Assembly (NCBI GenBank): GCA_019636495.1 | Contig: JAHBXL010000006.1 | Span: 124,001 to 188,000, forward strand | DNA length: 64,000 bases | Direction: 5' to 3' | From: Phycisphaeraceae bacterium | GTDB taxonomy: Bacteria > Planctomycetota > Phycisphaerae > Phycisphaerales > UBA1924 | Program-made: the position numbers and the translations under genes | The notes under the pieces: model-generated | What the model was told of the DNA's origin: nothing | What the model saw: the letters and a program-made list of their open reading frames with translations, nothing else | The model's database searches: none | Part shown: piece after piece, positions 21,175 to 36,455 of the stretch | Position numbering within the stretch: position 1 is the first letter of the stretch | Layout: each line of letters starts with the position of its first letter

Positions 21175-22440
21175 ATGCCCTCGCTGTTCGATGCCCGCGC
21201 CGACTCGATCCTGACCTCCCTGCGCGACTCGGGGCAGTTCAAGTTCCTGCAGATGATCGAAGGCCCGATGGATGCGACGGTGCGTCTCCGCGGCTCTGGC
21301 GAGTGCCTGTGCTTCTGCTCCAACAACTACCTCGGCCTCGCCAATCACCCCGAGGTGGTCGAGGCCGGCATCAAGGGACTGCGCGACTATGGCGCGGGGA
21401 CGGCGAGCGTGCGGTTCATCTGCGGCACCTTCACACCGCACGAGGTGCTCGAGCGCACCATCGCGCGGATGATGGGAACCGAGGCCTCGTACACGTTCGT
21501 CAGCGCGTGGACCGCGGCCGAGGCGCTCTTCCCCACGCTGTGCGAGCCCGGCGACACCATCATCTCCGATGAACTGAACCACGCGTGCCTGATCGACTCG
21601 ATCCGCCTGGCGACGACCATCAAGAAGGGCGTGCACAAAGCGGTGTACCGCAACAACGTGCTGGAGGGCGAGAAGTCCCTCCGCGCTGCGCTGGAGGCCG
21701 CGAGGGCCAGCAAGGAGGCGACCGGGCAGATCTGGGTCGTCACCGACGGCGTGTTCAGCATGGAAGGCTCGATCGCCGACCTGCCGGCGATGCGGAGGAT
21801 GTGCGATGAGTACGGCGCGCTGCTGGTCGTCGATGACTCGCACGGGCACGGCGTGATGGGGAAACTCGGCCGCGGCACGCACGAGCACTTTGGCATGGTG
21901 GATGACCTGGGTGCCCCGCCGCTCCGCGGCGAGAACGCGGCACGGAGTGCCGCGCCACCCGGCAACCGCATCGACCTCTTCACCGGCACGCTGGGCAAGG
22001 CTCTGGGCGGCGGCGCGGGCGGATTCGTCGCCGCGAGCCGGCGCGCCATCGACCTGATCATCCAGCGCGGCCGGCCCACGCTCTTCTCCAATGCCCTGCC
22101 GTGCACGGTGGCGTGCAGCGCGAACACCGCGATCGAGATCATGCTGCGCGAGCCCGAGCGCGTGCAGCGGCTCAAGGACAACGTCGCGTATGCGCGCCGC
22201 AGGATCGGCGAGGCCGGCTTCGATGTGCTCAAGTCCCCCACCGCCATCTGCCCCATCATCGTGCACGACACCGCCAAGGCGATCGCGATGAGCAAGCGCC
22301 TGCTGGAACTGGGCGTGTTCGTGATCGGCTTCGGCTACCCGGTGGTGCCCGAGGGCCACGCGCGACTGCGCGTGCAGATTTCCGCCGCGCACACGCAGCA
22401 GCACATCGACCGGCTGGTTGATGCTCTCAAGAAGTTGTAA
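21175..22440 (+). CDS. kbl: Glycine C-acetyltransferase-like PLP enzyme (2-amino-3-ketobutyrate CoA ligase family)
   Basis: 421 residues from ATG 21175 with CAGGAG upstream. Alpha-oxoamine synthase fold: SNNYLGLANHPEV, RFICGTFTPHEVLE, DELNHACLIDS, TDGVFSMEGSIADLP, VDDSHGHGVMG and the PLP lysine at residue 275 in GTLGKALGGGAGGF. The spacing matches Kbl, which condenses glycine with acetyl-CoA in threonine breakdown. Related AONS (BioF) and serine palmitoyltransferase cannot be excluded. Odd feature: between HFGMVDD and IDLFTGTLG there are about 20 extra residues rich in Ala, Pro and Arg, encoded by 21909-21969. That stretch contains a dispersed palindromic repeat and looks inserted in frame. 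No threonine dehydrogenase gene is adjacent. Confidence 0.82.
   Translation: MPSLFDARADSILTSLRDSGQFKFLQMIEGPMDATVRLRGSGECLCFCSNNYLGLANHPEVVEAGIKGLRDYGAGTASVRFICGTFTPHEVLERTIARMMGTEASYTFVSAWTAAEALFPTLCEPGDTIISDELNHACLIDSIRLATTIKKGVHKAVYRNNVLEGEKSLRAALEAARASKEATGQIWVVTDGVFSMEGSIADLPAMRRMCDEYGALLVVDDSHGHGVMGKLGRGTHEHFGMVDDLGAPPLRGENAARSAAPPGNRIDLFTGTLGKALGGGAGGFVAASRRAIDLIIQRGRPTLFSNALPCTVACSANTAIEIMLREPERVQRLKDNVAYARRRIGEAGFDVLKSPTAICPIIVHDTAKAIAMSKRLLELGVFVIGFGYPVVPEGHARLRVQISAAHTQQHIDRLVDALKKL
21936..21954. repeat. Dispersed palindrome copy inside the kbl-like gene
   Basis: CGCGGCAC-GGA-GTGCCGCG, an 8-bp perfect inverted repeat with a 3-base centre, lies in coding sequence. Its 15-base core (reverse strand CGGCAC-TCC-GTGCCG) recurs at 29016-29030 and 36438-36454. 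Confidence 0.75.
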
Positions 22441-28992: not shown

Positions 28993-29015
28993 CGCGGACT
29001 CTCTTCCCTCTGGGC

Positions 29016-29030
29016 CGGCACTCCGTGCCG
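29016..29030. repeat. Dispersed palindrome copy between argB and the hypothetical gene
   Basis: CGGCAC-TCC-GTGCCG, perfect 6-bp arms. Same 15-base core as the copies at 21936 (opposite orientation) and 36437. Confidence 0.75.
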
Positions 29031-29052
29031 ACGGTTGCCATGGTGCTGCGGA

Positions 29053-36426: not shown

Positions 36427-36436
36427 CCGTTGGTGG

Positions 36437-36455
36437 CCCGGCACTCCGTGCCGGG
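36437..36455. repeat. Dispersed palindrome copy after clpC
   Basis: CCCGGCAC-TCC-GTGCCGGG, perfect 8-bp arms, 10 bases after the clpC terminator. It shares its core and the flanking GGTGGC with the copy inside the kbl-like gene (reverse orientation). Confidence 0.75.

Follow-up and report, generated by a model that had tools for sequence, protein, structure and literature searches.

The kbl-like gene at positions 21175..22440 (+ strand) of the window, that is, of the whole 64,000-nt stretch analysed (G000:C32:124001-188000), codes for a PLP-dependent acyltransferase of the BioF/Kbl family, 421 residues long, and carries an in-frame insert. We propose, with a probability of about 85%, that this insert is an inverted pair of REP elements of a Phycisphaerales class characterized by a GT[AG]G foot, an 8-bp stem and a TCC loop, most likely placed there by a RAYT-type transposase before the split from the sister genome G001, and that it codes for a probably neutral peptide. 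As such, the insert is a further case of the in-frame REPs already known. The unexpected part is that in many related genera RAYTs are nested in frame in tRNA synthetases and other essential genes, an arrangement for which no description was found in the open-access papers searched.

The host gene is single-copy in G000 (one strong match, E 1e-80) and its frame is open. The best NCBIfam match of its product is PRK06939, glycine C-acetyltransferase, at 407 bits, under the equivalog cut-off; PDB relatives are 7v58, 7bxp and 1fc4. The whole insert, 21910..21959, is an inverted REP dimer (no strand assigned) with the feet outward and a 2-nt spacer, and codes for residues 246-262. The right REP, at 21936..21959 (- strand), reads GGTGG CGCGGCAC TCC GTGCCGCG and holds the 15-mer CGGCACTCCGTGCCG; its R1 score of 34.1 bits (E 1.2e-5) comes from a covariance model whose training set included this sequence. 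Its outer stem, CGC/GCG, is unusual, there is no CT upstream, and its exact core recurs at 53 other places. The left REP, at 21910..21933 (+ strand), GGTGC CCCGCCGC TCC GCGGCGAG with one stem mismatch, was found by R1 (22.7 bits, E 0.0058) though it lay outside the training set, and it resembles the REPs that flank the leuS-nested RAYT of G030, GGTGG CCTGCCGC TCC GCGGCGGG. The first-pass annotation had recognized the 15-mer hairpin, which stands, and missed this second one; the approximately 20 extra residues that it described in the protein are indeed extra with respect to most orthologues. In the AlphaFold model of the protein (mean pLDDT 84), the only segment below 50 comprises residues 242-263, and the insert is thus predicted to sit in a loop that AlphaFold leaves disordered.

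The three copies of the core listed in the earlier annotation were recovered by exact search of the window, at 21938-21952 (-), 29016-29030 (+) and 36439-36453 (+), and the latter two do lie outside predicted genes. The copy at 36432..36455 (+ strand), between predicted convergent genes, is a complete REP, GGTGG CCCGGCAC TCC GTGCCGGG, with an R1 score of 35.7 bits (E 5.1e-6). The flank that it had been said to share with the kbl copy holds as far as the CCACC foot; the full GGCCACC does not, the kbl copy having CGCCACC. The copy at 29011..29032 (+ strand), between predicted codirectional genes, keeps the 15-mer, but it is to be regarded as decayed because the GGTGG foot and the outer pair are missing (R1 17.8 bits, E 0.08).

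Genome-wide, the 4.08 Mb of G000 (35 contigs) contain 54 exact copies of the 15-mer, 27 per strand. The 68% GC of this DNA favours such words, and a palindrome arisen by chance could be imagined on that ground; the reversed control, however, gave 0 copies, far from the observed number, and we give this reading practically no weight. Palindromes of the form GGCACNNNGTGCC number 72 versus 10 in the control, most with a TCC loop. Copies are clustered, 24 of 56 cores being less than 200 bp from another core, in both inverted and tandem clusters. The distribution among relatives is patchy: the 15-mer is present in 11 of 61 genomes, G000 counted, and most others have none. Copies number 19 in G003, 14 in the sister G001, 14 in G019, 10 in G018 and 7 in G040. 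The G019 assembly has no PF01797 match, which points to either an orphan REP population or a gap in the assembly.

The full unit spans 24 nt, with the GGTGG foot followed by the 8-bp stem and the TCC loop. Among the core-aligned copies, 51 have GGTGG, the stem [C/G/A]CCGGCAC, the TCC loop and the matching strand, with an outer stem pair that varies on both sides (C-G, G-C or A-T). The same foot and loop occur with other stems, as in GGTGG-GTCGCCAC-TCC-GTGGCGAC, and there is a variant with a four-base loop, GGTGG-CACCGCTC-TCCA-GAGCGGTG. Conservation is higher in the foot and the loop than in the stem. In 31 related units from several genomes, covariation extends to all 8 pairs (score 0.96 vs 0.20 shuffled), which is supportive rather than proof, since these rows were chosen for near-perfect pairing. 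No stop is present in the element in any of the six frames. Of the 49 distinct copies, 35 have a CT among the 5 nt that precede the foot, compared with 20% at other GGTGG sites; the associated p of ~1e-14 assumes independent copies, which clustered copies are not. The cleavage site of E. coli TnpA-REP is a CT beside the REP (PMC8266576), and the upstream CT of the G000 copies matches it. The units are thus foldable palindromes within the 20-50 nt range, with a 5′ GT[AG]G foot and dispersed copies clustered as in BIMEs. Together with the high copy number and the flanking of a RAYT in G003 described below, this bears out the REP-like reading of the earlier annotation.

Truncated half elements, in which GGTGGTCCGGCACTC is joined to the next TGGTGG..., occur in tandem upstream of complete copies at C25:56, C34:16496 and C7:36234 of G000.

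The likely agent is a Y1 (HUH) tyrosine transposase of the RAYT/TnpA-REP type. RAYTs were searched with a Y1 transposase from G013 as query; H58 and H60 of the HUH motif are present in every one of 17 aligned RAYTs, Y118 is nearly invariant, and the proteins match PF01797. The RAYT of G003 at C5:16947-17354 is flanked on both sides, in inverted orientation, by GGTAG-CCCGGCAC-TCC-GTGCCGGG, in which a GTAG foot precedes the exact core. This is the flanking arrangement of a REPtron. Most C-type relatives are flanked likewise by hairpins with their own stems. The only C-type RAYT of G000, on C23, is flanked by a different stem, CACGGGCA, the core of which recurs exactly 18 times in G000 and 9 times in G001; therefore G000 holds at least two REP families. 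The second of these, with the core CGGGCATCCTGCCCG, has its own RAYT at G000:C23:239844-240137 and occupies 18 places. Around the PF01797 genes of G000, no GGTGG hairpin with the exact stem of the kbl copy was found at the gene ends, nor does the G000 assembly contain a RAYT flanked by the exact kbl-type hairpin.

We propose that such a transposase most likely recognizes the units as single-stranded hairpins and would put copies of them into new sites, and that one REP pair would have entered the kbl-like gene, at a surface loop of its product, before G000 and G001 separated. The insert would have survived as a probably neutral peptide of ~17 residues because a pair of this length leaves the frame intact and the element is free of stops in six frames. 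We infer transposition by a RAYT, single-strand chemistry and neutrality for the enzyme, and, because G000 is without a RAYT flanked by the exact hairpin, mobility in living cells as well. Against the proposal stand this missing RAYT, the variable length of the kbl loop in many relatives, the unusual outer stem and missing upstream CT of the kbl copy, and the 15-mers of G019, whose assembly is without a PF01797 match.

The kbl loop of the relatives provides information on the age of the insert. Orthologues such as those of G019, G031 and G006 have no insert, and distant relatives lack the kbl residues. The earlier annotation had named, as a finding that would speak against insertion, the same residues without the palindrome; distant relatives offer no such case, and the nearest to an exception is G001 (same genus, 92% identical), where the same loop residues, PLRGENAARSAAP, are encoded by an imperfect hairpin. 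The other such finding that it had named, a 15-mer at chance frequency, is contradicted by the genome count, which is far above chance. In the right hairpin and foot, the two sisters differ at three positions, all synonymous, that spoil the hairpin or foot. We read this as one kbl insertion, which would be older than the sister split given that the residues are the same and the hairpin has decayed in G001. Elsewhere the loop has from 0 to ~35 extra residues, mostly not REPs; therefore the loop grows by other routes too. In G018, it contains GGCCGGCT-TCC-AGCCGGCC (R1 24.5 bits), whose core CCGGCTTCCAGCCGG has 23 copies in G018 and 0 in the control; the G018 loop thus independently holds a different REP. 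A hairpin in the kbl loop of G014, CCTCCCCCGCCCCGGCGGGGGAGG, was considered as a member of the class and rejected, as model R1 misses it. The loops of G026 (L079) and G011 (L071) have inserts resembling simple repeats, ggcacggaggcacggagg... and ggaaagcggaaagcgg..., respectively. Across genera, small repeats of several kinds thus seem to end up in the kbl loop.

An alternative explanation is that a low-complexity Ala/Pro/Arg stretch of old origin forms the kbl loop, and that the hairpin arose in it through point mutation, or was copied in from elsewhere in the genome by gene conversion, with no insertion of an element. The G001 loop, with its identical residues and its three synonymous differences, can be read in that way; loop length and composition vary throughout the family, and a similar AARSAP stretch is found in G036. 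However, the G000 copy has the foot, the stem pairing and the loop of the 24-nt element all together, uses the A/T-ending codons AGT and CCA in a window of 68% GC, and is adjoined by a second REP in the usual inverted, feet-outward layout. A clear-cut insertion of the same kind is present, in addition, in an aldehyde dehydrogenase gene (see below). An old stretch remodelled into a hairpin is therefore improbable in our judgment, and an inserted REP pair is preferred. Also considered was a regulator site, a terminator or an RNA element under selection, with its presence in genes incidental. Many copies are indeed intergenic, 18 between codirectional and 7 between convergent genes, and the stronger conservation of foot and loop is as in protein-bound hairpins. 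Nevertheless, half of the cores are in predicted genes, no T-run follows the hairpin, and the stem changes between genomes in step with the local RAYT. We have rejected the terminator and regulator-site readings on these grounds, and selection for such a role is very unlikely to account for the family.

The kbl insert is not the only one in coding sequence. A home-made codon-usage gene caller, applied to the stretches around 56 flanked copies, places 28 cores in predicted genes and 28 outside; with 83-89% of the sequence coding, the cores are depleted in genes, and half of them are nonetheless genic. The genic copies are found in both orientations and in five of six frames, and all 22 host genes are open through the element. 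The hosts, which apart from kbl were named from recognizable motifs with no family search, include ileS, valS, gatB, ffh, an mqnE-like gene, asparagine synthetase and aldehyde dehydrogenase. Some placements near the N-terminus, as in the mutS-like and dnaE-like genes, may lie outside the gene should translation begin at a later codon. The aldehyde dehydrogenase copy is an 11-codon insertion in G000, absent from G001, G019 and G013. Ten further genes were examined for a clean empty site, and none was found. We do not claim that the target site contributes the GGTGG foot; the G001 aldehyde dehydrogenase junction has GGTGG, and the alignment there is ambiguous. Copies in the mqnE-like gene, valS and one E2-like gene are common to G000 and G001, that in gatB is common but decayed, and variable loops often have different REP families in the two sisters. 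With kbl single and open, ~20 other genes holding the element in frame and element-free orthologues at several sites, the earlier suggestion that it can settle in a gene without breaking it is well founded.

The transposase genes themselves are found within other genes. The RAYT query gave 21 strong matches in relatives, 18 of them inside open frames of 399-1689 aa, and in the loci that were read out leuS, valS, rdgB or miaA is parted into two halves with the RAYT between them, all in one frame. A class-wide sample has RAYT matches in 90 of 298 genomes and adds ileS and purH to the hosts. The nested arrangement, supported by Pfam on ten loci, occurs in G013, G003, G030, G026 and G008 as well as in the class-wide sample (L108, L192, L144, L142, L193, L230-L251), and the nested RAYTs usually have inverted flanking REPs that are read through. 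On a tree built from 47 RAYTs, those with the same host gene group strongly together (12 host changes vs 31.5 shuffled), so that the lineages are tied to a host gene, with a few jumps. At G003:C2:110295 (L104), a different Y1 type (TYGTWLHGD..GSVD) lies in frame at the valS position that RAYTs occupy in other genera.

It is tempting to propose, at somewhat less than even odds, that the REP/RAYT system of the Phycisphaerae lives by in-frame residence. RAYTs would be internal domains of LeuRS, ValRS, IleRS, PurH, RdgB and MiaA, kept intact because frame-breaking changes would kill the host gene, with host-gene-specific lineages and occasional jumps. REPs would spread in frame through other genes, and the whole would be intein-like without splicing.

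Several known systems resemble the elements described here. In REPtron Sm of S. maltophilia (group 3 TnpA-REP; PMC8266576), the REP likewise consists of a conserved tetranucleotide foot followed immediately by a perfect 16-nt palindrome that a 3-nt loop interrupts, and the RAYT is flanked by the repeats; the present elements differ in their foot (GTGG in G000, GTAG in G003), TCC loop, stems and phylum. REPs of the GTAG superfamily (Di Nocera et al. 2013, PMC3733652) are similar in their GTAG/GTGG-tagged stem-loops, dimers and in-frame insertions. The same study reports in-frame REPs from Opitutus, Rickettsia and others, over half of the intragenic REPs being dimers or groups that code for 20-30 residues. 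The superfamily is presented there as mostly intergenic, whereas here about half of the core copies are in predicted genes, and the parts of the study consulted give no description of RAYTs nested in frame in host genes. Rickettsia palindromic elements (RPE), set beside the kbl REPs by description, are also palindromic repeats in frame in conserved genes, with other sequences. REPs situated in flexible loops have been described, as have feet of the GT[AG]G form (PMC6006769). In TnpA-Y1 subclass 2.4 (PMC6006769), a single open frame runs through both REP and RAYT; there, however, it is the REP that lies within the transposase gene, while in the present case a housekeeping gene encloses the transposase.

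REPs owe their name to an extragenic position, and the family described here is nevertheless well settled in coding sequence. The genic copies amount to natural, datable tests of protein loops that tolerate inserted peptides. If the nested RAYTs are expressed within aminoacyl-tRNA synthetases and purine enzymes, transposases would have a novel means of escaping loss, and a hidden DNA-processing domain would be present in housekeeping enzymes annotated in this class.
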